Origin: Clostridiales bacterium
GTDB taxonomy: Bacteria > Bacillota > Clostridia > Christensenellales > UBA1242
Length of the DNA: 34,420 nt
Direction of reading: 5' to 3'
NCBI GenBank assembly: GCA_918285425.1
Contig: CAKJZE010000017.1
Coordinates: 1 to 34,420, forward strand
Made by a program: the position numbers and the translations under genes. Shown here one piece after another: positions 8,777 through 32,730 of the stretch (positions are counted from its first letter, which is position 1; each line of letters begins with the position of its first letter). The notes beneath the pieces are model-generated. The model had not been told where the DNA came from, ran no database searches, and was given only the letters and a program-made list of their open reading frames with translations.

Positions 8777-10612
8777 TTATTCCAACACAGCCTTAATTCG
8801 GCGCACACCTGCACTTGAAGCTTCTTCCTTTTTAATAATGAAATGTCCAAGCACACCCGTATGCTCAACATGTGGTCCCGTGCAAATTTCTTTTGACGCA
8901 TTACCGATTGTATAAACTGAAACAATATCAGGGTATTTTTCAATAAACTGATGTTCTGCACCAGCTTTTACTGCATCTTCTTTCTTCATCTCTTCCCTTG
9001 TGACAGTTATGTCATCTTTGATCCAACCATTGACAAAATCTTCTGCCTGTTTAATTTCATCTTCAGAAAGTTTATGATCACAAGCAAAGTCAAAGCGAAG
9101 TCGCTCTGCTGTGATGTTGCTTCCCATCTGATGGCTTGTTTCCCCAACAACTCTTTTAAGTGCAGCATTTAAAAGGTGAGTTGCAGTGTGATATTTTGTT
9201 TCCATCTCACCACTGCCAGCAAGTCCACTTTTTGCAACTTGACTGTTTGCCCTTGCAAGCTCTTGGTGAGCTTTAAATGCTTCTTCATAGCCAGCCATAT
9301 CAACTTTAAGATCTTTTTCCGCAGCCATTTCAACAGTCATTTCAATTGGAAATCCATACGTCTCATAAAGCCTGAAAGCAGCTTTTCCGCTGATGACTTT
9401 ATCAGCCTCTGTTGGAACATAGTTTGGATTGTTTTTTGTCATAAACTCAACTTTCTTTTGCATATTTATTATAGTTTTATCAAACTCTTTCTCTCCTGTT
9501 TCAAGAGTCTTATTAAACTTGTCAATTTCTGCCTTTATGCTTGAAAGTATGTATTCTTTTTTCTCCACAAGAAGTGGGTAAGCCTCATTATAAACTTCAT
9601 CAATATAAATTCTTGCGACTTCAATCAAGCCCTCTGTGTTAAGTCCAATTTTCTTTGCATGACGAATTGCACGACGAAGAAGTCTTCTTAAAATATAACC
9701 AGCCCCAACATTGCTTGGAAGTATGCCATTTTTATCTCCAATAAGCATAACACCTGTGCGCATATGGTCAGAAATGATACGCATTGACTTTGTCTGGTCA
9801 GCATTTGCATCATACACGATACCGGTATTTTTTTCAATAGAAGATATAACACCAGCAAACAGATCAGTTTTATAGCAGTCTGTAAGTCCATTTAAAAACA
9901 TCAAAAGCCTTTCAAGACCAAAACCGGTGTCTACATTTTTGTTTTTAAGTGGAACATACCCATTTTCAGTTTTTTCGTACTGCATATAAACATCGTTTCC
10001 AATTTCAACATATCTTCCGCAACCACAAGCCGGGCCACAATCCTTGCCACATGCATTGTCGTGGCGTGGATAAAACCACTCATTATCAGGGCCACATGGG
10101 GTTCCAACTGTACCCTCAAGCTCCCACCAGTTATCTTCTTTTGGAAGATAGAAAATTCTGTCTTTTGTTATGCCAAGATTTTGAAGATATGATGCAGTTT
10201 CCTCATCACGAGGGGCACTTTCATTGCCCTCAAAAACAGTAGCACAAATTTTATTTCCATCAAAACCAAGAACTTTTGTTAAAAACTCAAAAGTCCAAGC
10301 AGTTTTTTCTTTTTTGAAATAGTCGCCTAAACTCCAGTTGCCCATCATCTCGAAAAATGTAAGATGTGAAATATCGCCAATGCTTTCAATATCATTTGTC
10401 CTGACACATCCTTGAACATTACAAAGTCTTGTCTTGCCGCTTGGATGTTTTGCACCAAGAAGATAAGGCATAAGTGGTTGCATACCTGCAACATTGAACA
10501 TAACACCAGTTGTTCCATCACCAACAAGAGATGCAGCACCAATGTCAACATGTCCCCTGTCTTTATAAAAATTTAGCCATTTATCACGTAATTCTTTACT
10601 TGTTATTTTCAT
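8777..10612 (-). CDS. alaS: Alanyl-tRNA synthetase, short form without C-Ala domain
   Basis: Charges tRNA-Ala with alanine. The class II core is clear: FNVAGMQPLMPYLLGAKHPS, FFEMMGNWSLGDYFKKE, GTPCGPDNEWF and the motif-3 region GAGYILRRLLRRAIRH. The editing domain keeps its metal ligands HTATH (475-479) and C577/H581 in ICTGPHVEH. The protein ends at 611 aa just after the editing domain, whereas most bacterial AlaRS are about 870 aa with an oligomerising C-Ala domain. LCNVQGCVRTNDIESIG and CTGPHVEHTG differ from the common bacterial forms and recall the short AlaRS of Patescibacteria. The gene follows dnaB by 30 bp, probably in one operon. The ribosome-binding site is weak. Confidence 0.95.
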   Translation of the reverse strand: MKITSKELRDKWLNFYKDRGHVDIGAASLVGDGTTGVMFNVAGMQPLMPYLLGAKHPSGKTRLCNVQGCVRTNDIESIGDISHLTFFEMMGNWSLGDYFKKEKTAWTFEFLTKVLGFDGNKICATVFEGNESAPRDEETASYLQNLGITKDRIFYLPKEDNWWELEGTVGTPCGPDNEWFYPRHDNACGKDCGPACGCGRYVEIGNDVYMQYEKTENGYVPLKNKNVDTGFGLERLLMFLNGLTDCYKTDLFAGVISSIEKNTGIVYDANADQTKSMRIISDHMRTGVMLIGDKNGILPSNVGAGYILRRLLRRAIRHAKKIGLNTEGLIEVARIYIDEVYNEAYPLLVEKKEYILSSIKAEIDKFNKTLETGEKEFDKTIINMQKKVEFMTKNNPNYVPTEADKVISGKAAFRLYETYGFPIEMTVEMAAEKDLKVDMAGYEEAFKAHQELARANSQVAKSGLAGSGEMETKYHTATHLLNAALKRVVGETSHQMGSNITAERLRFDFACDHKLSEDEIKQAEDFVNGWIKDDITVTREEMKKEDAVKAGAEHQFIEKYPDIVSVYTIGNASKEICTGPHVEHTGVLGHFIIKKEEASSAGVRRIKAVLE

Positions 10613-12260: not shown

Positions 12261-13403
12261 ATGAAATTTAAAATGAATAACACTTTAGATGAAAATATAA
12301 ATCAATATTGTATTAAATACAAAATTGTGCCACCTCAAAAATTTGTAAAAGGAATAATAAATCCTGGAGTAAAAACTCCTCAAAGCATAACAGATAAAGT
12401 TGTTCGCAAAATAGAAATCGAGGAGGCAAAAGATTTTAAACTACACAACATTTCTGATATAGTACGTGGAACAATAATAATTGAAGATTATTCAATTGTT
12501 CCTAGTTTAATATGGAAGTTGAAAGAAAATATACCAAATCTTTATGGTTACATATCCTCATGGACAAACGGCTATAAGGGAATTCATTTAAATTTTTCCA
12601 TTGATGAAACTAATGCCGAAATACAAATACATACACCAGAATCATTTGCTGTGAATAAAGCAACTTCTGAAGTTTATGCAAAATGGAGAAATTACAATCC
12701 AAGAAGAGAAATAGAAAATTTATTAGAACTCAAAGCTGTTGACAGTCCAATGTTTAAGGAAAAGAGAAATCAGTTCTTTGAATTGAGATCAGAATACAAT
12801 AAAGAAAACCAAGATGCAAGATTTCTATATGATAAATTATGGAGAACTGTAAACTTAAATAAACATGAAAATCTAATAAATGCTGTTTTATTTAAAATTA
12901 ACAAAATAAAATCACCTGACACAGACATCAATAAAAAACTTCACGAATCTCTATATGCAAATTTAATTGATATCAATACAGGATTAGTTGATAAAAATGA
13001 GACATATAAAAATGCAATTAATATAAGTTTAAATAATAAAGATAACCAGAACGTTTTTGTTAAAAAATTAACAAATATTTATGAAAACACTTTATCTAAT
13101 TTAAATACACAATACATACAAAATGAAACAGATGAAAACATCATAAAAACTATAAACCAGTGGGAAACATTTTTAAATGAAGAATTAAACAAATTAAAAA
13201 TGAATCTGAATTGTCAACAAGATTACTGCTCGTTTATATATTTGAAGAAATTTAACTTTATTTCAAATGCACTTAATTTGCAAAACGGACAATATATACT
13301 TACAATTGATCAAAAATCATTAAAGAATAATGTAATGGAGTGTGCAAAAGAGATACAAAAAAGACAAAATATTCTTACAAATTCTATTGAAAAAGTTAAT
13401 TAA
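12261..13403 (+). CDS. RelA/SpoT synthetase-like domain protein, putative toxSAS toxin
   Basis: 380 aa. Residues 36-130 follow the nucleotide pyrophosphokinase fold of RelA/SpoT proteins in order: VKTPQSITDKVVRK (compare the KSPESI.EKL.RK of small alarmone synthetases), DIVRGTIII (66-74, the DIAGIRI strand), GYKGIHLNF (104-112, compare GYRSLH) and EIQIHTP (120-126, compare EIQIRT). About 240 residues after it are helical, charged and unrecognised. Family members make (p)ppGpp or (pp)pApp, or pyrophosphorylate tRNA 3' ends; which one applies is unknown. A small HD hydrolase follows at 13657, the partner type seen in FaRel/ATfaRel toxin-antitoxin pairs. The gene is very AT-rich with many ATA codons. 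The start is uncertain: ATG 12261 or 12273; AGAGG is 3 nt from the first. Confidence 0.68.
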   Translation: MKFKMNNTLDENINQYCIKYKIVPPQKFVKGIINPGVKTPQSITDKVVRKIEIEEAKDFKLHNISDIVRGTIIIEDYSIVPSLIWKLKENIPNLYGYISSWTNGYKGIHLNFSIDETNAEIQIHTPESFAVNKATSEVYAKWRNYNPRREIENLLELKAVDSPMFKEKRNQFFELRSEYNKENQDARFLYDKLWRTVNLNKHENLINAVLFKINKIKSPDTDINKKLHESLYANLIDINTGLVDKNETYKNAINISLNNKDNQNVFVKKLTNIYENTLSNLNTQYIQNETDENIIKTINQWETFLNEELNKLKMNLNCQQDYCSFIYLKKFNFISNALNLQNGQYILTIDQKSLKNNVMECAKEIQKRQNILTNSIEKVN

Positions 13404-13621
13404 ATATTCAATATTTTGTCTATTAGTTGTTTCAATGCTTGTATATCTGTTTTATAACTTGCTTCTATTTCAGAAATTTCAATTCCTATGTTATCTTGTA
13501 AAAAATTAAGACTGAATGGTAAAACTTTCCATTTGTGATTAACAGAATCAAAAACAAAATCTAAAGAACATACATCATCATATGCATAAATATTATTATT
13601 AATATCAACATAAAATTTCAT
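13400..13621 (-). CDS. Small antisense ORF between synthetase and hydrolase genes
   Basis: 73 aa beginning MKFYVDINNNIYAYDD, with an acidic, plausible globular composition and no recognised family. Its stop overlaps the stop of the convergent synthetase-like gene by 4 bp. There is no Shine-Dalgarno. Upstream TTGACA (13651-13656) and TATCAT (13628-13633) at a 17-nt spacing put the start point at about the ATG, which would make a leaderless mRNA. It may be a third component of the cassette or a chance ORF. Confidence 0.45.
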   Translation of the reverse strand: MKFYVDINNNIYAYDDVCSLDFVFDSVNHKWKVLPFSLNFLQDNIGIEISEIEASYKTDIQALKQLIDKILNI

Positions 13622-13656
13622 AATTAAATGATATTATAATTGGAGGAATATGTCAA

Positions 13657-14193
13657 ATGAATAATTATTGGAATGGCGATTTATTTTATAAAACTATAGA
13701 ATTCGCACAAAAAAAACATGAAGGCCAAAAAATAATGCTTTCACAAATGCCTTATATTGGCCATGTATTTGAAGTATTTGGTGAATGCGTAAGCGGATGT
13801 TTAGAAGATAATGCTAATATAAATTGGGATTATCTTATGCAGGTTGCATTATTACATGATACGCTTGAGGATACAAATTGCACATATAATGAATTATGTA
13901 TTACATTCAACAAGGAAATAGCAGATGGCGTTTCTGCGCTCACAAAAAATACAGATTTGCCTTACAATTTAAGAATACAAGATTCTTTAAGAAGGATAAA
14001 ATTGTGTAAACCAGAAATTGCTTTGATTAAATTAGCTGATAGAATTGTTAATTTGCAAGAAAAACCTATACAATGGGACAATAACAAACTTATAAATTAT
14101 AAACAAGATGCAGAATTAATATTGGAAGAGATAGGATATGTATCTAAAACGTTGTCTTATAGGTTACAACAAAAAATAGAAAATTACTTATGA
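13657..14193 (+). CDS. Small HD-domain alarmone hydrolase (SAH-like), putative antitoxin
   Basis: 178 aa covering essentially only the RelA/SpoT-type HD hydrolase domain. Metal- and substrate-binding motifs are intact and in order: HEGQ (21-24), MPYIGH (31-36), ALLHDTLEDT (64-73, with the HD pair H67-D68 and E71-D72), SALTK (93-97) and KLADRIVNL (125-133, D128). Such Mn-dependent enzymes remove the 3'-pyrophosphate from (p)ppGpp or (pp)pApp, and some SAHs reverse tRNA 3'-pyrophosphorylation by toxSAS toxins. There is no synthetase or regulatory domain, so it is a stand-alone SAH. GGAGG stands 10 nt before the ATG. It lies 253 bp downstream of the synthetase-like gene on the same strand, so an antitoxin role is a reasonable inference. 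Confidence 0.82.
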   Translation: MNNYWNGDLFYKTIEFAQKKHEGQKIMLSQMPYIGHVFEVFGECVSGCLEDNANINWDYLMQVALLHDTLEDTNCTYNELCITFNKEIADGVSALTKNTDLPYNLRIQDSLRRIKLCKPEIALIKLADRIVNLQEKPIQWDNNKLINYKQDAELILEEIGYVSKTLSYRLQQKIENYL

Positions 14194-14241
14194 TATTCCA
14201 TTAATAATTTTAAATATTAATAATTGAATTTGTTTAAAATA

Positions 14242-14292
14242 AGAAATTTTTCACGCAAAATTTACTTTTGTAAATAAGCATGTGAGATTTTG
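14242..14292. repeat. Diverged palindromic repeat, copy 1
   Basis: Arms near AAATTTTTCACGC and GTGAGATTTT enclose TTTAC and GTAAA. It matches copy 2 at 14570-14621 in layout and in the core CACGC...TTTACTTT.GTAAAT...TGTG. Confidence 0.5.
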
Positions 14293-14457
14293 ATAAATTG
14301 TTTTAATTCAAGAAATTTAGGGCAAAATTTAAATATAATTGATACTATAAAATAATAACTTTTTTACAGGTCAGAGTTTACATATATGACTATGTAAAAT
14401 TTATATCTTCAAACATTAATTTAGGGCGAAATTTATTTTGATAACAAGGCAACAAAA

Positions 14458-14537
14458 AATCGCGACCCATTCGACTTCGTGCTTTGCACTCCGCTCAGGG
14501 CAGGCTCCACAAGCACTATATTCACATAACGCGATTT
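14458..14537. repeat. GC-richer segment bracketed by AAATCGCG/CGCGATTT
   Basis: The 8-bp inverted termini enclose about 64 bp including ATTCGACTTCG and CTCAGGGCAGGC, similar to small interspersed repeats common in Clostridia-type genomes. It stands out from its AT-rich surroundings. Confidence 0.45.
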
Positions 14538-14569
14538 CAGGGCGGAGTTTGCGTATATAAAAAAGAAAC

Positions 14570-14621
14570 AAAAAAGTTCCACGCTTGAGTTTACTTTCGT
14601 AAATGAATGTGTGGAACTTTT
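14570..14621. repeat. Palindromic repeat, copy 2
   Basis: AAAAGTTCCACGC pairs with GTGTGGAACTTTT (one G-T pair), with an inner GTTTAC/GTAAAT stem. A-rich and T-rich flanks on both sides mean it could terminate transcription in either direction. Confidence 0.55.
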
Positions 14622-14660
14622 GTAGTTTCTGCATTTAGATGCGTGAAATCCGCCCTGAAA

Positions 14661-14951
14661 TTAGCTGTGCATCCACTTAACCAAAGGCTCCCTTATTGCA
14701 TAAAGCACAGCCAAAAGAATTAAAACAGTAACCGCACCAATAACACCATTAACAAGCACCTTTTGCAACTTTGCCCTTTCCTCTTTTCCTTCAGCTTTTG
14801 CGAATTTAACACCAACTATAACGCCATAAAGAATACCAAGTGTCAAAACAACCCCGATAGCATAAGGTCCAATAAGCGTGATGGCTTTATAAAGTGGATC
14901 AACTGCATTTTCTCCAGTGCCAAGCAGATTAAAGAAGTTTGTAAATCCCAT
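14661..14951 (-). CDS. Two-helix VirB2/TrbC-like pilin-type membrane protein
   Basis: 96 aa with two hydrophobic segments (residues about 26-47, PYAIGVVLTLGILYGVIVGV, and 70-86, GVIGAVTVLILLAVLYA) joined by a short, highly charged loop (KFAKAEGKEERAKLQK). This is the shape of VirB2/TrbC-type pilin subunits of type IV secretion systems. The sequence itself is too short and simple to assign with certainty. It is divergently transcribed from a VirD4-type coupling ATPase with back-to-back promoters, which supports the reading. AGAGG lies about 8 nt before the ATG. It could instead be an unrelated small membrane protein. Confidence 0.6.
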   Translation of the reverse strand: MGFTNFFNLLGTGENAVDPLYKAITLIGPYAIGVVLTLGILYGVIVGVKFAKAEGKEERAKLQKVLVNGVIGAVTVLILLAVLYAIREPLVKWMHS

Positions 14952-14983
14952 ATTTTGTTACCTCTTTCATATTTGTTAACTTT

Positions 14984-15012
14984 ATCTTATCATTTTTAAG
15001 CACGTATGGCAA
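14984..15012 (-). promoter_or_regulatory. Promoter of the pilin-like gene
   Basis: TTGCCA (15007-15012), 17-nt spacer, TAAGAT (14984-14989) with an extended TGA just before it. It stands back to back with the coupling-protein promoter, whose -35 box begins 40 bp away. Confidence 0.65.
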
Positions 15013-15051
15013 CTAAAATTTAAAAAAAGATGAAAACCATGCCAATTTTAT

Positions 15052-15080
15052 TTGATTTATATTTTTATTATGTGTATAAT
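15052..15080 (+). promoter_or_regulatory. Promoter of the VirD4-like gene
   Basis: TTGATT (15052-15057), 17-nt spacer, TATAAT (15075-15080). It lies downstream of an upstream in-frame ATG at 15030, which rules that codon out as the start. Confidence 0.7.
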
Positions 15081-15110
15081 ATCCTTAATCTTATTGAAGG
15101 GGTGCGATCT

Positions 15111-17081
15111 ATGGCTGAAAAAAAAGGAAGTAAATTTTTAATCAGATTGTTTGGTATAGGGCTGACATTTGTTATTGGTCTTTTTGCGGCGTCAGCTGTA
15201 ATTAATTACTTGACAACAAAAGAATTTGATCTTATTGCAACTGTTAAAGGCATTACAGATGGTAAGGCACTTTTTGCCGCTGGTGTTATGGCAATGGTTG
15301 TTTTGCTTATGATGCTTATTAGCGGTGACAAATCCGGGCCAAAGCTTAAAGGTAAAGACAAAATGGAAAATCAACGCTTTCTTAAAGATGATGAACTTGA
15401 CAAAACCTTTAAACATTGCCTATACAGTGAACTTTCATCTTTCAGCCACACAGGTGTTCCCTTCCGTGTTGTAAAAAAAGGAAACAACAACTTAAAAATA
15501 CATTTCACACCAGACTGCCACACACTTATCGTCGGAGCTACTGGTACTGGTAAAACTGTTTCCTTCATTGAACCTGCACTCCAAATCATTCCTTGCTTAA
15601 AGAATAAGCCATCATTCTTTATCACTGACACAAAAGGTGAGCTTTATGCTCATCACAGCCAAAACCTTGTAAAGCAAGGCTATAAACTGGTGCTTCTTGA
15701 TCTTGCTGAACCATACAATTCTGTTCAGTGGAATCCACTTGAAAATATTTACACACAATGGCAAAAACAGCTTCATTTGGAAGAAGAAATTTTAAGACAT
15801 ACAAATGATCCAGTTAAAAACTATAATTTCATCAAAGTCGGTGAAATATATGATGATGAATGGTATGAATTTGAAGGGAAAGCTTTTGCTTCACTTAAAG
15901 ATGCACTCTTGGAAGTCGAAGTTGAAAAATCTAAAATTCGTGACGATTGCTTTGAAAACTTAAATGATATTGCAGCCGCAATTTGTACAATTGAAAACAA
16001 AAGTGAACCGTCTTGGGAACAAGGCGCAAGGGATTATTTCTTGGCAGTTTTAATTGCCATGCTTGAAGACAGCGAAAACGAGGCTTTAGGTATGACAAAA
16101 GAGAGATATAATTTCTTCAACGCCTATAAAATTGCCATGAATAAAGAAGAGGACTTTGAGGTTGTCAAACAATACTTTAACGGCAGAAATCCTCTTTCTA
16201 AAACCCGTCAACTTGCAGCCAACATCACACAAACTAATGCAAAAGTTACTCGTGATGGTTTCATGTCAACTTTAAACACAAAACTCTCTATGTTTTCGGA
16301 CAATGGTATCAGCTTCTTAACCTCAAGAAATGATATTGACTTTTATAACATGGACGAACAACCAACTGCATTCTTTGTTAAAATTCCTGATGAAAGAGCA
16401 ACAAGATATACACTTGCTTCTGTATGTATTTCACAAGCTTATAAGCTGTTTGTTGCAAAAGCTCGCGCAAATGAAAGAACCAACAGCGATAAAATGGCAC
16501 ACCTTAAACGCCCTGTTTTGTATTTAATGGACGAGTTTGCAAACCTTCCAAAAGTTTCTGAACTTGAAAAAATCATAACAGTCGCACGTTCAAGATGGAT
16601 CTTCCTGAACATGGTTATTCAGTCTTACAGCCAGCTTGACAATGTCTATGGCAAAGAGGTTTCTGAAATCGTGCGTGGTAACTGTCGTGCAACAATCTTC
16701 CTTGGAACCCCTGACCTTGCAACAAGAGAAGCCTTCTCTAAAGAGCTTGGAAGTTACACAATTGAGCAATCATCAAAAACCACTCCTGATAAAAAAGACA
16801 AAAAAGATGCTGGAGGACCTACAACAAGCACATCTTTGACCACTGTACCTCTTGTCTATCCTTCTGACCTTGACAAAATACCACTTGGTAACAACTATAC
16901 TAAAATATTTGGAAATTATCCTGTAAAATCAGTCATAACACCTTACTTCAAGTGCACAGATATCTATAAGATTGGTAAATACGAGATGCCATTTATTCCT
17001 GGAAGAAGAATGAATGAACAAGAAGTTTTCTATGATATAAGAAAAAGAAACGAACTTATCTTATCTGCATACGATGAATAA
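15111..17081 (+). CDS. VirD4/TraG-family type IV secretion coupling ATPase
   Basis: Membrane-anchored hexameric ATPase of the type that delivers DNA-protein or protein substrates to a type IV secretion channel. In 656 aa there are two N-terminal membrane segments (about 10-32 and 50-68), Walker A VGATGTGKTVSF (about 141-152), FFITDTKGELYAHHSQNL, and Walker B LYLMDEFANLPKVSELEKI (D474, E475), followed by the family's ARSRWIFLNMVIQSYSQL. The start is ATG 15111, with AAGGGG about 8 nt upstream and a promoter at 15052-15080. A C-terminal K/T/S-rich stretch (KTTPDKKDKKDAGGPTTSTS) is probably disordered. No relaxase, VirB4 or VirB6 gene is in the window, so the rest of any secretion system must lie elsewhere. 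Confidence 0.92.
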   Translation: MAEKKGSKFLIRLFGIGLTFVIGLFAASAVINYLTTKEFDLIATVKGITDGKALFAAGVMAMVVLLMMLISGDKSGPKLKGKDKMENQRFLKDDELDKTFKHCLYSELSSFSHTGVPFRVVKKGNNNLKIHFTPDCHTLIVGATGTGKTVSFIEPALQIIPCLKNKPSFFITDTKGELYAHHSQNLVKQGYKLVLLDLAEPYNSVQWNPLENIYTQWQKQLHLEEEILRHTNDPVKNYNFIKVGEIYDDEWYEFEGKAFASLKDALLEVEVEKSKIRDDCFENLNDIAAAICTIENKSEPSWEQGARDYFLAVLIAMLEDSENEALGMTKERYNFFNAYKIAMNKEEDFEVVKQYFNGRNPLSKTRQLAANITQTNAKVTRDGFMSTLNTKLSMFSDNGISFLTSRNDIDFYNMDEQPTAFFVKIPDERATRYTLASVCISQAYKLFVAKARANERTNSDKMAHLKRPVLYLMDEFANLPKVSELEKIITVARSRWIFLNMVIQSYSQLDNVYGKEVSEIVRGNCRATIFLGTPDLATREAFSKELGSYTIEQSSKTTPDKKDKKDAGGPTTSTSLTTVPLVYPSDLDKIPLGNNYTKIFGNYPVKSVITPYFKCTDIYKIGKYEMPFIPGRRMNEQEVFYDIRKRNELILSAYDE

Positions 17082-17214: not shown

Positions 17215-17244
17215 TTGCCAGGTGCAATAGGATTGTGATAAAAT
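17215..17244 (+). promoter_or_regulatory. Promoter placing the start point at the 17251 ATG
   Basis: TTGCCA (17215-17220), 18-nt spacer, extended TGA plus TAAAAT (17239-17244). Only GTGTGT separates the -10 box from the ATG at 17251, so the mRNA is probably leaderless. Confidence 0.55.
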
Positions 17245-17250
17245 GTGTGT

Positions 17251-19005
17251 ATGAAAATGAAAAACCGCGTATTTAAAAAATTTGTATGTCTTGCTGTTTG
17301 TATGGTTTTATCCATACTATGTTTATCATTGGCATTTATTATTCCACCAGTAACACAAATAACTTTAGGTGAATCAACGCAAAACACACATTTTGCAACC
17401 ACAGACAGCAGTACATTATCAATTGACTATACAATCTTGAATTACATTTCAATTTCTCAAGAAAATCATGTGTTTACGCAAAGCGATTTTACAACTGTCA
17501 CAATGGAAGATACTGATTATCCAGCTATCTTTTCAAACAACACAATCTCAATGCGCAATGTGTCAGCAAAAACATTCAGAGTAAATAGTATTAATGATAA
17601 CACTTCTGTCTCTTTATATGAAAAAACAATAAATGGACAAAAATATTATGTTTTCAATATTGATGAGATAACTGAAGATGCTTATTATATAATTTCAATG
17701 GAATGTACACAAGATATTCAAACCAGCAGAGGTACAGTTCAACAGACATATCACTTGACTTTCTGCATAGTTCAAACCACGACCAATTTCAAAAAGGCAA
17801 GTTCACAATATGGCGCAGAAAATGCAATAAACTGGCACTATACAACAGGAAGCAAAGACTTTGATGTTTCCGCTCCAGAAATGAACCAAACTTATTCAAC
17901 AATCACTCTGTCCTTCCCTGCCGGATCTTTTTTAAATCCAGTATTTGTAAATTTCATCTATCTTGGTGAAAGTTATACTCTTGTAAGATATAAAGATACC
18001 TCAAATCACATCATAACTTATAATCAAGCAAATAATGTGACAATAGACGATGTCACAGACTTGTCTGAAGCAATGAAATTGACATTGGATAAATCCGGAG
18101 CATATACTGTTAAAATTTATGACAAAACATCAACAGTTGCATCTAATGTTAACAACATGTTAGAGTATCATTTCAACATTAAAAATCAAGCTGATCCATT
18201 TTATATCAGTGTAGTAAATGCTGTAAATGGCAGCATGATAATGAATGGACAAATAATTAACACAAATGCACTTGTAAATTTTGTGAACTTTTCAGAAATA
18301 AGATCAACCACTTCAAAAGTTGAGGTAAACAGATCATACAGACCAACAGACAATCAAAATACAACTGATACTACCTCTTATCCAGCTTCTACCCTTCCAG
18401 AAAATATCACCATTGATAAAGATGGTGTGTATGAAATAATTGTATATGATCGTCAACTTACTCCAATAAAAACCTATGGTTTCACAATTTTACAAAGTAT
18501 AAGATCATCATTTACAATTGAGGGTGAGACAATCAGTACCGAAGTAAGTGACCCTGTCAACACCCCTATCTCAAGGACAATGACAAGCAATATCAGCAGC
18601 TCATACCGCACTTTACAAACATCAACTGAATACTCTTTCGTGGTAACTGTCGCAAAATCTTCACCAAGTATTACAGGAATTAATAACAATTCAGGTACTT
18701 CAAATTCAGTCAATTTGACAGTTCATGGCGTTGGAAATATTGATGTCTATGCCTCACTTGACGGAAAATCACTTGACCTGAGCAACTATACTTTTGAAAA
18801 CGGTTCCACTCTTCCAACATTTTCTGAAAGGGGAAACTATTATGTAAGAATAACTGATGAAATGGGTACGATTGCAACAAAAAGCTTTGCAATAACAATC
18901 CAGTTGAATACTGCTTCTATAATTCTGATATCAATTGCTGCCGCTGCAATCTTGTTCATTTTAATATTTGTTATAGTTTCAAGAATGAGAATTAAAGTTC
19001 GTTAA
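17251..19005 (+). CDS. Large surface protein with N- and C-terminal membrane segments
   Basis: 584 aa from ATG 17251 (another ATG lies at 17257). An N-terminal signal segment (about 8-32, FVCLAVCMVLSILCLSLAFI) is followed by about 520 extracellular residues rich in Thr, Ser, Asn and Tyr, then one C-terminal helix (ASIILISIAAAAILFILIFV) and a short basic tail RMRIKVR. This is type I membrane topology with no LPXTG. The ectodomain looks like several beta-sandwich units: phrases such as DKSGAYTVKIYDKTS, DKDGVYEIIVYDRQL and SERGNYYVRITDEMG recur about every 120-200 residues. I do not recognise the family. It follows the coupling ATPase but has its own promoter, so a functional tie is only suggested by position. 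Confidence 0.75.
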   Translation: MKMKNRVFKKFVCLAVCMVLSILCLSLAFIIPPVTQITLGESTQNTHFATTDSSTLSIDYTILNYISISQENHVFTQSDFTTVTMEDTDYPAIFSNNTISMRNVSAKTFRVNSINDNTSVSLYEKTINGQKYYVFNIDEITEDAYYIISMECTQDIQTSRGTVQQTYHLTFCIVQTTTNFKKASSQYGAENAINWHYTTGSKDFDVSAPEMNQTYSTITLSFPAGSFLNPVFVNFIYLGESYTLVRYKDTSNHIITYNQANNVTIDDVTDLSEAMKLTLDKSGAYTVKIYDKTSTVASNVNNMLEYHFNIKNQADPFYISVVNAVNGSMIMNGQIINTNALVNFVNFSEIRSTTSKVEVNRSYRPTDNQNTTDTTSYPASTLPENITIDKDGVYEIIVYDRQLTPIKTYGFTILQSIRSSFTIEGETISTEVSDPVNTPISRTMTSNISSSYRTLQTSTEYSFVVTVAKSSPSITGINNNSGTSNSVNLTVHGVGNIDVYASLDGKSLDLSNYTFENGSTLPTFSERGNYYVRITDEMGTIATKSFAITIQLNTASIILISIAAAAILFILIFVIVSRMRIKVR

Positions 19006-21056: not shown

Positions 21057-21890
21057 TCATTTTCCTCTTATTCTTTCATTATCATATCTATAAAACCAAT
21101 CAAACAGTTTTTCTTTAAGTTCTTTCATTGTTTTTATTTCTTCATTCCAAATTGTTTCGGTTTTCATTCTACTATGAAAGCTCTCTATAACAGCGTTGTC
21201 TAGTGGAGTTCCTTTTCTGCTCATTGAAATTTGATAGCCATAATTCCTACATGCGGTTTGGTATTCATAAGATGTATATTGAAACCCTTGGTCGCTATGT
21301 ATTATCAAATTTGTTGCATCTATTCTATAAAGTTTTGCCCACTTTAAAGTATCTGTTACAAGAGAAACAGGGTTTGTATTACGATATTGCATCGACACAA
21401 TACTTCTATCATACAAATCTAAAATTGTAGAAATATATAAGACTTGACCTTCAATATGAAATTCTGTTATATCTGTAACCCAAACTTTATTTGGTTCACT
21501 TACATTAAAATTTCTTTTTAACAAATTTGGTTTTACGTTTTCTTCAAACTTTCTCTTACTATAATTGTATCTTGTTTTCTTTGAATAATTCGGCATTATG
21601 TGGTATTTTTGCATTATTCTTAATATCTTCTTATGATTCATAACTAAGCCATATTTAAGTAATAATGCTTTTTGTATTCTTCTATAACCATATGTTTTAT
21701 GCGATTTATTAAACACTTCAAATATAAGTTGGGCATCAACATCATCTTTATTTAATGTGTTACGATTTCTGTAATACGTTCTTAAAGATATATCTAAAGT
21801 GTTACATAATGTTTTTAATGGATATTCTTTGCGATATACATTTATAAAAATTACTTTATCTCTTGTTGAAGCTTCAAGAATTCTTCCATT
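21057..21890 (-). CDS. IS3-family transposase OrfB, made by -1 frameshift
   Basis: The catalytic part of the transposase, with an rve-type DDE domain: VWVTDITEF (first D), IIHSDQGFQYTS (second D) and DNAVIESFHSRMK (E). The open frame extends upstream of any good start codon to the A8 run shared with orfA (21889-21896). A -1 slip there joins ILKK from orfA to NGRILEASTRDK in this frame, giving the usual OrfAB fusion. A GTG at 21716 could start a shorter product. The C-terminus stops early at YDNERIRGK; a different frame continues EKTIRYTEFKEKF, so the last 20-30 residues may be lost to a one-base shift. Confidence 0.85.
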   Translation of the reverse strand, partial: NGRILEASTRDKVIFINVYRKEYPLKTLCNTLDISLRTYYRNRNTLNKDDVDAQLIFEVFNKSHKTYGYRRIQKALLLKYGLVMNHKKILRIMQKYHIMPNYSKKTRYNYSKRKFEENVKPNLLKRNFNVSEPNKVWVTDITEFHIEGQVLYISTILDLYDRSIVSMQYRNTNPVSLVTDTLKWAKLYRIDATNLIIHSDQGFQYTSYEYQTACRNYGYQISMSRKGTPLDNAVIESFHSRMKTETIWNEEIKTMKELKEKLFDWFYRYDNERIRGK

Positions 21891-22366
21891 TTTTTTAGTA
21901 TCTCAACCTGTGTTTTATAGTCAATTTCCGAGTTTAGTTTTCTCCCGCTTCTTCCTTTCTTTGATGTATTGTAAATGTTTTTTCCTTCTTGTTCCATTCT
22001 TAACCAAGTTTTAATTGTATGAAATGATATACCATACTCTTTGGCAAGTATTTTTACTCCTGCATAACCAGATTTATATTTATCCATTATCTCTCTCTTA
22101 AACTCTGGCGTGTATTTGTTATTTTTTCGAGTAGGGACATATTTCAATTTTTTTGAATCATTGGACTTTGACTCAACTTTAGTTCTATTTGTCTTTTTCC
22201 TAGAAAGGTTATATTCGTGATTATTTCTATCTGCATTAATCCAATTCCAAAGGGTTTGTTTGGCAATTCCTTGTGACTTAGCAAACTCAGTACAACTCAT
22301 ATTGCTTGAACGAAACTTTTTTAACATTTCTTCTTTGTATTCTTCTGTAAAACCTCTATAATACAC
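21851..22366 (-). CDS. IS3-family OrfA, DNA-binding subunit
   Basis: 171 aa with two helix-turn-helix units of IS150 type: MSCTEFAKSQGIAKQTLWNWI (about 24-44) and YAGVKILAKEYGISFHTIKT (about 106-125). A basic linker lies between them, and the C-terminus is a leucine-rich coil (QVEILKKMEEFLKLQQEIK) of the kind that mediates oligomerisation. It starts at GTG with AAAGGAG about 8 nt upstream. The A8 run at CTA-AAA-AAA-ATG is the frameshift site. An extended -10 box TGTTATACT lies at 22393-22401. Confidence 0.88.
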   Translation of the reverse strand: MYYRGFTEEYKEEMLKKFRSSNMSCTEFAKSQGIAKQTLWNWINADRNNHEYNLSRKKTNRTKVESKSNDSKKLKYVPTRKNNKYTPEFKREIMDKYKSGYAGVKILAKEYGISFHTIKTWLRMEQEGKNIYNTSKKGRSGRKLNSEIDYKTQVEILKKMEEFLKLQQEIK

Positions 22367-23054: not shown

Positions 23055-23843
23055 TTATTGTGTTACTTTATATTTAGATAAAAGATCATTGAAAATCTGC
23101 ATATATCTTTGACTTTTCTTTTTATCACCCGACGCAAGCAAAAATTTTAAATTATTATCCAACCTAGTGCCTTGTACTTCCCCATCTTTATTGAAACTCA
23201 ACACTCGCGCTGCAACCCCATAATTTCCATCAATAATATTTAGTTTTAGTATGCCAAGCTGCTGTTTTATAAGACTGTAATGGGTACATCCTAAAACCAA
23301 CGTATCAATAAGTGGATTAGATAAAATATTTTTTCTTATCAGTTTCATTTCTTCACTTATTTTGAGTGGTTGCTTTTGTACAAAATGTCTTTCAATCTTA
23401 TCTGCTAAATGTGGCATTTTTTGGCTTGTTATGACACCTTTATTTAAGGCTATCAAATGCCTATATTTATCTTGCTGCAGTGTAAGCGCCGTTGCAATAA
23501 CAAGCAAATTTTTAGTTTTACTCTGCGCCAGTGCAGGCTTTATTGCAGGCTCTGTTCCAATAATGATTATATCAGTGAAATATTTTCTCAATTTTTCCAC
23601 CGTACAAGCTGTCGCAGTGTTGCATGCAATAATTATCATGGAAATGGCATATTTGGCTCTTATGGCTAAAATATTGCTTAAAACCAAGTCATATATCTCA
23701 TCTGCCGTTTTGTTTCCATATGGACAATTTTTGTCATCAGCAAAGTACAAAAAATCTGTGCAGTTAACTTTTAAATAAGTTTCCGCCATTGTGGTAAGAC
23801 CACCAATACCACTGTCATAAAAAAGAAGATATTTTTTACTCAC
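23055..23843 (-). CDS. murI: Glutamate racemase
   Basis: Converts L- to D-glutamate for peptidoglycan stem peptides, in the cytoplasm. The 262 aa show the family motifs: FYDSGIGGLTTM (substrate-binding Asp-Ser), FADDKNCPYGNKT, ACNTATA with the first catalytic Cys, and LVLGCTHYSLI with the second. The start is GTG at 23841-23843; no ATG fits and there is no Shine-Dalgarno. A promoter (TTGTCA, 18 nt, TAAAAT) ends 6 nt before this GTG, so the mRNA appears leaderless. The last 30 residues are not conserved. Confidence 0.93.
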   Translation of the reverse strand: MSKKYLLFYDSGIGGLTTMAETYLKVNCTDFLYFADDKNCPYGNKTADEIYDLVLSNILAIRAKYAISMIIIACNTATACTVEKLRKYFTDIIIIGTEPAIKPALAQSKTKNLLVIATALTLQQDKYRHLIALNKGVITSQKMPHLADKIERHFVQKQPLKISEEMKLIRKNILSNPLIDTLVLGCTHYSLIKQQLGILKLNIIDGNYGVAARVLSFNKDGEVQGTRLDNNLKFLLASGDKKKSQRYMQIFNDLLSKYKVTQ

Positions 23844-23849
23844 AATATC

Positions 23850-23879
23850 ATTTTATGATTGTCCTGTCTTTTATGACAA
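23850..23879 (-). promoter_or_regulatory. Promoter placing the start point at the murI GTG
   Basis: TTGTCA (23874-23879), 18-nt spacer, TAAAAT (23850-23855), then GATATT and GTG. The -10 to start-codon distance of 6 nt predicts a leaderless transcript. Confidence 0.55.
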
Positions 23880-23904
23880 ATAAAAAAGGGTTTTAAACCC
23901 TTTT
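23880..23904 (-). terminator. Terminator of the comEC-holA-M28-like operon
   Basis: AAAAGGGTTT (23884-23893) and AAACCCTTTT (23895-23904) are complementary, and the minus strand runs on in T residues. Only a few bases separate it from the murI promoter. Confidence 0.75.
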
Positions 23905-26907: not shown

Positions 26908-28473
26908 CTAAATAAAGATAAAAGCCAATCCCAACAGTAACATACTTAAAATTACGCCTGAAAAATTAATAATTTTCTTTGTTTTTGCACCAGCAAAGAC
27001 ATAGTCAGATCCAAATACAATACTTGTCACCAAAACAATACTGAACAAAAGTACACATATCTGATTTGCACCTGATAAAGTAAGTGCACCAAACACTTTA
27101 CTTATGGCTGTCACAACGCTCATTAAAAGCTCATAAATATAGGTAAACGCACCCAAAGCTGGCGTCAACATACCTGATATAACAAAGACAAACATAAACA
27201 TAAATGCAAAGCTTGCCAAAGGTATTGCAAGTATATTTGCAACCACTGAAAACAAAGATAATCTGTCAAATTTAAGCATAACAACAAGCGTGCCCAAAAA
27301 GACCGCAAATGTTATTGCAATTGCAGATGCAAATTTCTTATGAAATACTTTTTCAAACCACCTTGTTAATGGCTTTGAAAGGAGAAGAATTCCAAGAACA
27401 GCTGAAAAACTTAATTGAAATCCAACGTCATAAACTTCAAATGGTTTAAAGAATAAAATAATTATCGCAGCAAAACTTAAACAAGAAAGTCCATCATATT
27501 CTTTAAGTCGCAACTTAAAGTAAAGCAGTACCACCGTCATAATAAGCGCACGAGTTACAGATATAGTAAACCCACACGCAAAAGCATAAAGGAATATAAT
27601 TATGCTTATCACCCAAAATTTTACTTTATCATTTGCTTTAAAAAGTTTAAGCAAAAATCCAAGTAAAGACACAACAAAACCTATGTGCAAACCACTGACC
27701 GCCAAAAGATGTGCAGTTCCGCCCGCTTGATAAGTCTTTGTCATATCCTCACCAAGCCCAGACTTATCCCCAAACATCATTGTATATCCCAGTTCACTGT
27801 ATTCTTCAGAAAGATGAGTACTTAAAACTTCCTTTGCCTTGACCTTAAATTTCTGAAAAATATTTCTTTGTATTTGGCCAGTACTGCATGCAAGTTCCTC
27901 ATTACCTTTGCCAATAAGGCTGATGCCTTTATTATAAAAATAAAAACTTGGATTATCCTGCTGATAAAGCGAAGTTTTAAAGAAATAGGTTGTACCTGAT
28001 ATGACTTCCCCAATCTCATACTTTTCACTGCGACCATCCATAACAGAAAGATATAAGCGCACACGCTTTTGTGACAAATTAACTTCAGTTTTAGTATTTG
28101 TCATCTTCACATCAACAAGAGTTATGACATAATTGTCATTTTCATTAATATATGGCTGATTTTCAACAGCTCCGATAAAAGAATATGTGCCACTTTCCAC
28201 ACCTGAGTTGTTATATGTCAATATTGATAAAAGGCTGAGTCCAACGCCCAGCATAAAACTTATTGCAACTGCAAGCACCTTGAACAGCTTGTACTCTTTT
28301 GCTACAACAAGCTTGGTCAGTACGGTCACAACAAACAATGTCGCAATTATACAAGATAAAACAATTCTTAAATTATTTCCGCTAAAAAATCCGCCTATGC
28401 AAACAATACCACCAATTAAAAACAAACTGACAGACACAAGCGGACGATAGTTAAAATATTTTTTCTGACTCAT
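26908..28473 (-). CDS. comEC: ComEC/Rec2-family DNA-uptake channel without beta-lactamase domain
   Basis: Polytopic protein of 521 aa. ComEC conducts single-stranded DNA across the membrane during transformation. Residues about 1-200 include the N-terminal helices and the extracytoplasmic OB-fold-like region. The competence domain follows with AGGTAHLLAVSGLHIGFVVSL (around 242-262) and several more helices to the end. Full-length homologues of about 700-800 aa also carry a metallo-beta-lactamase domain, proposed to degrade the non-transported strand; here the protein stops after the last helix. No separate domain is encoded nearby. An extended promoter ends 7 nt before the ATG and no Shine-Dalgarno is present. 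Confidence 0.9.
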   Translation of the reverse strand: MSQKKYFNYRPLVSVSLFLIGGIVCIGGFFSGNNLRIVLSCIIATLFVVTVLTKLVVAKEYKLFKVLAVAISFMLGVGLSLLSILTYNNSGVESGTYSFIGAVENQPYINENDNYVITLVDVKMTNTKTEVNLSQKRVRLYLSVMDGRSEKYEIGEVISGTTYFFKTSLYQQDNPSFYFYNKGISLIGKGNEELACSTGQIQRNIFQKFKVKAKEVLSTHLSEEYSELGYTMMFGDKSGLGEDMTKTYQAGGTAHLLAVSGLHIGFVVSLLGFLLKLFKANDKVKFWVISIIIFLYAFACGFTISVTRALIMTVVLLYFKLRLKEYDGLSCLSFAAIIILFFKPFEVYDVGFQLSFSAVLGILLLSKPLTRWFEKVFHKKFASAIAITFAVFLGTLVVMLKFDRLSLFSVVANILAIPLASFAFMFMFVFVISGMLTPALGAFTYIYELLMSVVTAISKVFGALTLSGANQICVLLFSIVLVTSIVFGSDYVFAGAKTKKIINFSGVILSMLLLGLAFIFI

Positions 28474-28480
28474 TTGTCAT

Positions 28481-28510
28481 ATTATATCAAAATTCGACAA
28501 ACGCAATCAA
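28481..28510 (-). promoter_or_regulatory. Promoter placing the start point at the comEC ATG
   Basis: TTGATT (28505-28510), 18-nt spacer, extended TGA plus TATAAT (28481-28486), then ATGACAA and the comEC ATG. A start point 7-8 nt after the -10 box coincides with the ATG. Confidence 0.65.
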
Positions 28511-28522
28511 GAATATATAATA

Positions 28523-28573
28523 AAAAAAATAAAAAGTCCGGCTCTTACTGCTTAAAGCAGTTCGAGTCGGACT
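28523..28573 (-). terminator. Terminator of tRNA-Glu
   Basis: AGTCCGGCTC (28535-28544) pairs with GAGTCGGACT (28564-28573), with an inner ACTGC/GCAGT stem, and the minus strand continues with a long T-rich tail. It begins 5 nt after the tRNA 3' end. Confidence 0.85.
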
Positions 28574-28577
28574 CTTT

Positions 28578-28652
28578 TGGTACCACCACGGAGAATCGAA
28601 CTCCGGTCCCCAGCGTGAGAGGCTGGTGTCCTAACCGCTAGACTATGATGGC
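28578..28652 (-). tRNA. tRNA-Glu (anticodon CTC), CCA encoded
   Basis: 75 nt including CCA. The acceptor GCCATCA pairs with TGGTGGT (two G-U), the D arm contains AGCGGTTAGGAC, the anticodon stem CCAGC/GCTGG encloses CTCTCAC with anticodon CTC, and the T arm is CGGAG-TTCGATT-CTCCG. Discriminator A is followed by encoded CCA. It reads GAG codons. It has its own promoter and terminator. Confidence 0.93.
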
Positions 28653-31951: not shown

Positions 31952-32710
31952 TCAATGTCTTAAAATCAAATTTTCTTCAAAATACAACTCTCCATCACTA
32001 GCCCGTCTGAAAGATAAAAACACACCCTGCTGACCATTTTGAAAAGTTTGAGAAGTAATATAACAATATTGTCCAACATCTGCTGGCACAATAGCCTCTG
32101 GTTTTTCACAACCAACTGCAAGCAAAAATGGCTTGTTATCACGATAAATTATTCCCAGATAAGAATTCTCATCACCATTTTTGCATTCTATAAATTTTGA
32201 ACATTTAAACATATTTTCCAAATCTTTATTTCGTGAAAAAACTGAAAACAAGTGAATCAAATTGTCTTTAATTTGATCAAAAAATGTATCATTTCTTACA
32301 ACATTAAAAAGTTTATATACAAGATCATCTGTCACTTTATTTTTATTTATCACGAATTGTCTTTCATTTTTTAATTTTAAATACTGTTGATCAATAGCTT
32401 TTAAAATTTTACCAAGCTTACCAACATTATTGTATATGCCAATAAATTTTTCACCTTCACAATAAAGACAAAACAAATAACTCTCCTGTTTTGTAAATTC
32501 ATGGTCAAGTAAAAAAGTACTTTTATTGTCAATTTTTATCAATATACATTTTGTTTTAAAATGAATAAACAAATATTGTGCATCTTTGCGAGCATTGTCC
32601 AGTGTAATTATGGTTTTATCTGCTCGCTTTTGAGCACAAATAAACATACCAGACTGACAGCTCAACTCACCTTCTTTATAAAGTGACACAATAAATTGTT
32701 CATATTCCAT
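31952..32710 (-). CDS. Hypothetical protein, 252 aa
   Basis: No family recognised. Soluble; begins MEYEQFIVSLYKEGELSCQS and ends with a strand-rich part (VGQYCYITSQTFQNGQQGVF). An in-frame ATG 13 codons upstream lies inside the rsmA terminator and would add a hydrophobic stretch, so I prefer ATG 32708-32710. This start has no Shine-Dalgarno, but TG-T-TATTCT (32717-32725) ends 6 nt before it, so a leaderless mRNA is possible. Several Cys residues are scattered without a clear metal motif. Confidence 0.7.
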   Translation of the reverse strand: MEYEQFIVSLYKEGELSCQSGMFICAQKRADKTIITLDNARKDAQYLFIHFKTKCILIKIDNKSTFLLDHEFTKQESYLFCLYCEGEKFIGIYNNVGKLGKILKAIDQQYLKLKNERQFVINKNKVTDDLVYKLFNVVRNDTFFDQIKDNLIHLFSVFSRNKDLENMFKCSKFIECKNGDENSYLGIIYRDNKPFLLAVGCEKPEAIVPADVGQYCYITSQTFQNGQQGVFLSFRRASDGELYFEENLILRH

Positions 32711-32730
32711 ATAATAAGAATAACACAAAA

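Follow-up and report, generated by a model that had tools for sequence, protein, structure and literature searches.

Does the comEC gene of this bacterium yield an mRNA that begins at its own start codon? The first-pass annotation of the window, i.e., of the whole analysed stretch of 34,420 nucleotides, had raised this question not only for comEC, but also for murI and for the gene starting at 17251. The window represents contig C17 of a genome of 885,806 bases (886 kb; 62 contigs, 89% complete, 33.8% GC), all contigs of which were included in the analysis. Genomes of the same family (f1), which consists of gut Clostridia, are tiny, with sizes of 0.8-1.5 Mb, and the nearest relative, G006, has a comEC that is 78% identical. 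All assemblies were of MAG quality. About 749 genes were predicted in the own genome with a purpose-written caller, and the start codons are therefore our own assignments. A pattern search did not detect a 16S rRNA 3' end in the own assembly, and for this reason the anti-Shine-Dalgarno (anti-SD) sequence was assumed. Genome-wide, initiation at an SD is the main mode: the anti-SD energy was -4.5 kcal/mol or lower for 69% of the genes, and AGGAG was strongly enriched upstream of start codons, with a peak 5-8 nt before the start.

First, comEC was analyzed (26908-28473, minus strand), which encodes a protein with a ComEC/Rec2 competence domain (Pfam PF03772, E 1.3e-51; TIGR00360). The ATG at 28473 lacks an SD. 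The -10 box TATAAT (28481-28486, minus strand) is preceded by TG, leaves 7 nt to the ATG and is conserved in G006 as well as in other family members, and an 18-nt spacer separates it from the -35 box TTGATT (28505-28510, minus strand). The promoter had a log-odds score of 8.3 in a model that had been trained on other, SD-bearing genes. The terminator between a tRNA-Glu gene and the promoter consists of a strong hairpin and the T run behind it (28534-28574, minus strand; -22.9 kcal/mol, z -6.2). This tRNA-Glu(CTC) gene is located on the same strand as comEC, and the region of the tRNA and the terminator hairpin (28534-28652) ends about 60 nt upstream of the comEC start.

The arrangement, i.e., a promoter at a distance of 5-11 nt in the absence of an SD, was found for comEC in 17 of 34 genomes of the family, but in only one of 20 genomes from other families (P=5e-4), and in this sole outside case an SD-led start is present as well. 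Among the members of the genus, the spacing was constant at 6-7 nt, although the intervening bases vary. About half of the comEC orthologs of the family do not have the arrangement. It is very probable that comEC belongs to a class of genes with leaderless mRNAs. A separate observation concerns a Spo0A-box-like heptamer, TG[TA]CGAA, which is found directly upstream of the comEC -10 box in five family genomes (own, 28492-28499, minus strand; G006, G002, G003, and G027), and the own genome codes for two C-terminal domains of Spo0A. TGTCGAA was considered as a common regulatory motif and was rejected, as it was neither over-represented genome-wide nor a marker of the leaderless class.

The next example was murI (23055-23843, minus strand), which encodes a glutamate racemase (TIGR00067, 153.5 bits, above the cut-off). 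It starts with a GTG at 23843 and has no SD. The -10 box TAAAAT (23850-23855, minus strand) is located 6 nt from the GTG, and the -35 box TTGTCA (23874-23879, minus strand) is again found at a spacing of 18 nt. A terminator-like hairpin is present further upstream (23884-23904, minus strand), the T tail of which extends to the -35 box. In this case it has to be considered that the box might be a sporulation-type -10 element (CATAnnnT), so that the promoter of murI would be unlike those of the other genes. Such CATA-type boxes are located 5-10 nt upstream of the start in murI orthologs (CATAAAAT, CATATCAT, CATATAAT), where the -35 matches are poor, and the own genome contains Spo0A C-terminal domains; the murI of the window, in contrast, fits the housekeeping model, trained on SD-bearing genes, with a log-odds score of 5.6 and a TTGTCA -35 box. 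The sporulation-type reading is the less likely one for this gene, and it is reasonably probable that murI is a member of the leaderless class. The CATA-type boxes of the orthologs (own region 23848-23858, minus strand) resemble the -10 elements of sporulation sigma factors.

The third gene (17251-19005, plus strand) encodes a secreted-looking protein of 584 amino acids of unknown family, orthologs of which are present in the genus and in G031. Again, no SD was found. The -10 box TAAAAT (17239-17244, plus strand) has a TG in front and is located 6 nt from the ATG, the -35 box TTGCCA (17215-17220, plus strand) is separated from it by 18 nt, and the log-odds score, obtained with the same model, was 11.7. 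A leaderless arrangement is also predicted for the orthologs of G006, G002, G031, and G001, and a leadered one for those of G004 and G003. The gene is likely to belong to the leaderless class. Its start had been misplaced by the purpose-written caller, which exemplifies that annotation programs relying on SD or coding signals alone can misplace leaderless starts.

For comEC, murI and 17251 the first-pass annotation was confirmed, as all boxes and spacings were present as described, and the anti-SD duplex energy was +0.6 kcal/mol in each case, showing that an SD is lacking. None of the three exhibits the pattern of SD-led leadered genes, which have an SD at 5-10 nt and a promoter 16-35 nt upstream, and no leadered promoter with a score above 1.6 was detected within 60 nt of any of them. 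All three have an in-frame stop codon 4-12 nt upstream of the start, and thus an alternative upstream start (GTG, 17245) exists only for 17251.

Two further genes had been proposed to be similar, and they fared differently. The first is an ORF of 73 amino acids (13400-13621), which has the elements TTGACA-17-TATCAT (13628-13656, minus strand) 6 nt upstream of its ATG. The promoter is indeed strong, with a score of 8.8 at 6 nt. However, the coding score of the ORF is at about the fifth percentile of the called genes and only one weak homolog was found in 39 relatives, so that, despite its good promoter, it may not be a gene. The second is the gene with the ATG at 32710, for which the TATTCT box (32717-32722, minus strand) is 6 nt upstream of the start. 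Here, the score was -0.1 at 6 nt versus 4.9 at 21 nt, and a leaderless mRNA is not supported. The upstream region of this gene contains a hairpin with a T run.

Additional features of the window include two adjoining ORFs (21057-22366) in which a transposase HTH domain and an integrase-core domain were found, and which probably represent an IS3-type element. A TraG/TraD-like coupling protein of type IV secretion (15030-17081) is encoded not far from a small protein with an HD domain (13657-14193), and the region 13657-17081 may thus be a conjugative or integrative remnant. An alanyl-tRNA synthetase-like protein of 611 amino acids (8777-10612) is shorter than usual.

The genome-wide frequency of such spacings was then compared with chance, a check that the first-pass annotation had suggested. 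The training set of the promoter model (-35/spacer/-10) comprised exclusively the 268 SD-bearing first genes of predicted transcripts, with the last 10 nt hidden, and the model learned TTGACA, a spacer of 17-18 nt, and a TG preceding TATAAT. A gene was called leaderless when the score was above 4 and the distance was 5-11 nt, both thresholds being our choice. Promoters at this distance were found for 29 of the 146 SD-less first genes, while local dinucleotide shuffles led to an expectation of 2.2. The numbers at 5, 6, 7, 8, 9, 10, and 11 nt were 0, 9, 7, 4, 3, 5, and 1, respectively, and a comparable excess was not seen at any other distance in this gene set. Of the SD-bearing first genes, in contrast, only one of 268 had a promoter at 5-11 nt, and their promoters peaked at 16-35 nt. 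SD-less intergenic ATGs that are not starts served as a further control; they had a match in 80 of 3,499 cases (2.3%, flat across distances), versus 20% at starts (P=3e-17), equivalent to an about 9-fold enrichment. The spacing is thus strongly enriched over chance. The leaderless set consists mainly of genes predicted to be the first of their transcript (29 of 33), and the predicted size of the class is about 34 genes, or about 7% of the transcript-first genes. The impression of a special cluster within the window was not confirmed, as three of its about 29 genes versus 34 of 749 genome-wide is not a significant difference (P=0.14).

Could the -10 boxes near start codons simply be due to chance in an AT-rich genome, with A and T further enriched by the selection of SD-less genes? 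A plain count of TATAAT over all genes did not reveal an excess 5-9 nt before starts, as this reading predicts, but SD genes dominate such a count, which explains the result. The model, which had been trained elsewhere, clearly surpassed both the shuffles and the non-start ATGs, the peak at 6-7 nt is sharp, and the same method gave no signal in a genome of another family (see below). Chance is therefore a very improbable explanation. In addition, 38 of the 42 genes with a spacing of 6-7 nt had a pyrimidine at position -1, compared to 169 of 281 (60%) of the other SD-less genes (P=4e-5). This base is not scored by the promoter model, and the count is thus independent of it. A pyrimidine is expected at this position if transcription starts at the start codon, i.e., at a -1/+1 start site. 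The distance from an upstream hairpin to the start did not differ between leaderless and other genes (P 0.20, 0.61, and 0.45).

The pattern would also be an artifact if start codons were misassigned and the true starts were located downstream, behind an SD, so that the genes would be ordinary leadered genes. Within 50 codons downstream, another start codon preceded by a good SD was indeed found for five of the 33 leaderless genes of the own genome and for 5 of 14 in the relative G029, but similar rates were obtained for SD genes (70 of 488 and 62 of 226, respectively). Moreover, the alignments of the comEC homologs of the genus begin at residues 1 to 5, and misassigned starts would not be expected to accumulate at a spacing of exactly 6 nt. 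Misassigned starts are thus highly unlikely to account for the class.

To analyze whether the arrangement is restricted to one genome, 400 kb each of three relatives were passed through the same pipeline, i.e., G029 and G027, which represent two further genera of the family, and G036, which belongs to another family of the same order. In G029, 15 of 66 genes were classified as leaderless, 11 of the 15 at exactly 6 nt (P=7e-8 against its own control), and in G027 it was 12 of 55, eight of them at exactly 6 nt (P=1e-6). A spacing of 6 nt corresponds to a start site on the A of the ATG. G036, the only genome outside of the family that was sampled in depth, had 2 of 49 and no excess over its own control (P=0.63). 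The leaderless share of first genes was thus about 7% in three genera of the family, versus about 1%, the background level, in G036. This distribution, an enrichment in three genera and its absence in G036, supports the leaderless interpretation of the first-pass annotation, and it is very likely that a genome-wide class of leaderless or near-leaderless mRNAs exists that includes comEC, murI and 17251.

The composition of the class was compared between the genomes. Of the 12 leaderless genes of the own genome that have an ortholog in G027, four (comEC, uvrC, holB, and a signal peptidase gene) are predicted to be leaderless there as well, versus five of 161 other orthologs (P=0.001), and many genes are leaderless in one genome and SD-led in another. 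The leaderless state thus appears to be retained beyond chance, yet to switch often. The leaderless genes of the own genome include those for ComEC, a ComF-family protein, PcrA, RecD2, UvrC, HolB, MnmE, TilS, LspA, signal peptidases, RlmH, cysteine desulfurase, and MurI. RecN, uracil-DNA glycosylase, TsaE, TruA, MreB, and Der are among those of G029, and ComEC, UvrC, RecG, and HolB among those of G027. Judged by eye, DNA repair and replication, competence, and tRNA modification recur.

How would these mRNAs be formed and translated? RNA polymerase initiates about 7 nt past the -10 hexamer. The promoters are of the housekeeping type (TTGACA, 17-18 nt, and TATAAT, often preceded by TG) and end 6-11 nt, mostly 6-7 nt, before the start codon. 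At a spacing of 6-7 nt the 5' end of the mRNA would therefore be on the start codon, whereas 8-11 nt would result in leaders of a few bases; in either case an SD would be absent. Both comEC and murI have a terminator immediately upstream, so that leaders can arise by read-through to a limited extent at most. Leaderless mRNAs are bound via the 5'-terminal codon and the initiator tRNA, and the 5'-terminal AUG or GUG would thus be recognized by ribosomes that already carry the initiator tRNA, while most genes of this bacterium use an SD.

A related possibility is that the mRNAs have very short leaders of 2-5 nt, or arise from alternative upstream start sites, and that initiation is leadered but SD-independent. 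With 13 of the 29 cases in the own genome, the spacings of 8-11 nt are in line with this possibility, and initiation that depends on ribosomal protein S1 is a known route without an SD. However, the most frequent spacings, 6-7 nt, leave no leader, a good leadered promoter is lacking for comEC, murI and 17251, and S1 seems to be missing from the genus of the window. Such a leadered route is thus an unlikely explanation, and leaderless or near-leaderless mRNAs remain the preferred reading.

The distribution of S1 (TIGR00717) differs between the families. A strong match was found in 24 of 24 genomes from other families of the order, while the window's family, represented by 36 genomes, has a short stand-alone protein in about 12 of them and single-domain matches in the remainder, including the window's genus. 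A leaderless comEC was not associated with the loss of S1 (5 of 12 genomes with S1, 12 of 22 without, P=0.72). The loss of IF3 was considered as a cause and rejected, as IF3 is present in 58 of 60 relatives, including the whole family. It is a tentative and rather doubtful idea that this reduced-genome family of Clostridia acquired or retained leaderless initiation throughout the family as S1 shrank or vanished, with a preference for low-level genes of DNA repair, replication, competence, and tRNA modification. If it were true, the family would be a natural system for mixed initiation in low-GC Gram-positives. In any case, a family with about 7% leaderless-looking first genes beside a relative of the same order without any is a setting for studying the gain and loss of this mode.

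Leaderless mRNAs had been regarded as rare in Bacillota. They are indeed uncommon, but not unknown: a prediction of TA-led leaderless genes for 209 Firmicutes genomes revealed them in 56, with an average of 4.2% of the genes (Zheng et al. 2011, PMC3160421). The architecture is alike, as an SD is lacking and a TATAAT-like box is located about 12 nt upstream of the start, and in low-GC Firmicutes the box is TAtAAT, in some cases with TG, as here. The bias towards information processing reported there agrees with the recurrence of repair, replication and tRNA-modification genes described above. In contrast to the uncultured Clostridia family studied here, the Firmicutes cases were concentrated in Lactobacillales and Mycoplasma, and the string "Clostridi" does not occur in the main text of that paper. 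A paper on the window's family was not found in a limited literature search.

In mapped transcriptomes of other Bacillota, 15 leaderless genes were reported for Clostridioides difficile (PMC7438776), 11 of about 1,100 for Acetobacterium bakii (PMC6239172), about 2% with leaders below 10 nt for Clostridium autoethanogenum (PMC6873888), and 28 cases without a leader or with one below 10 nt for Bacillus amyloliquefaciens (PMC4634765). In each species this is a small fraction of the mapped genes, and leaderless genes are thus rare in Clostridia with mapped start sites. Where a rate is given it is 1-2%, in contrast to about 7% of the transcript-first genes here, which is a predicted value, and the definitions are not identical. 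A similar order of frequency was found for mapped start sites of gut bacteria, i.e., 10% in Akkermansia and 15% in Bifidobacterium (PMC4782308), which belong to other phyla and for which the values were measured, whereas they are predicted here. In Deinococcus-Thermus, -10 elements are likewise separated from the ORF by just a few bp; this arrangement was tested experimentally and requires a specific spacing (PMC12340547). In that case, however, the element is TANNNT and the -35 box merely enhances expression, while full -35/-10 promoters in front of a minority of genes are found here. Taken together, the leaderless architecture is already known, while the lineage appears to be new and the frequency appears to be unusual for Clostridia.
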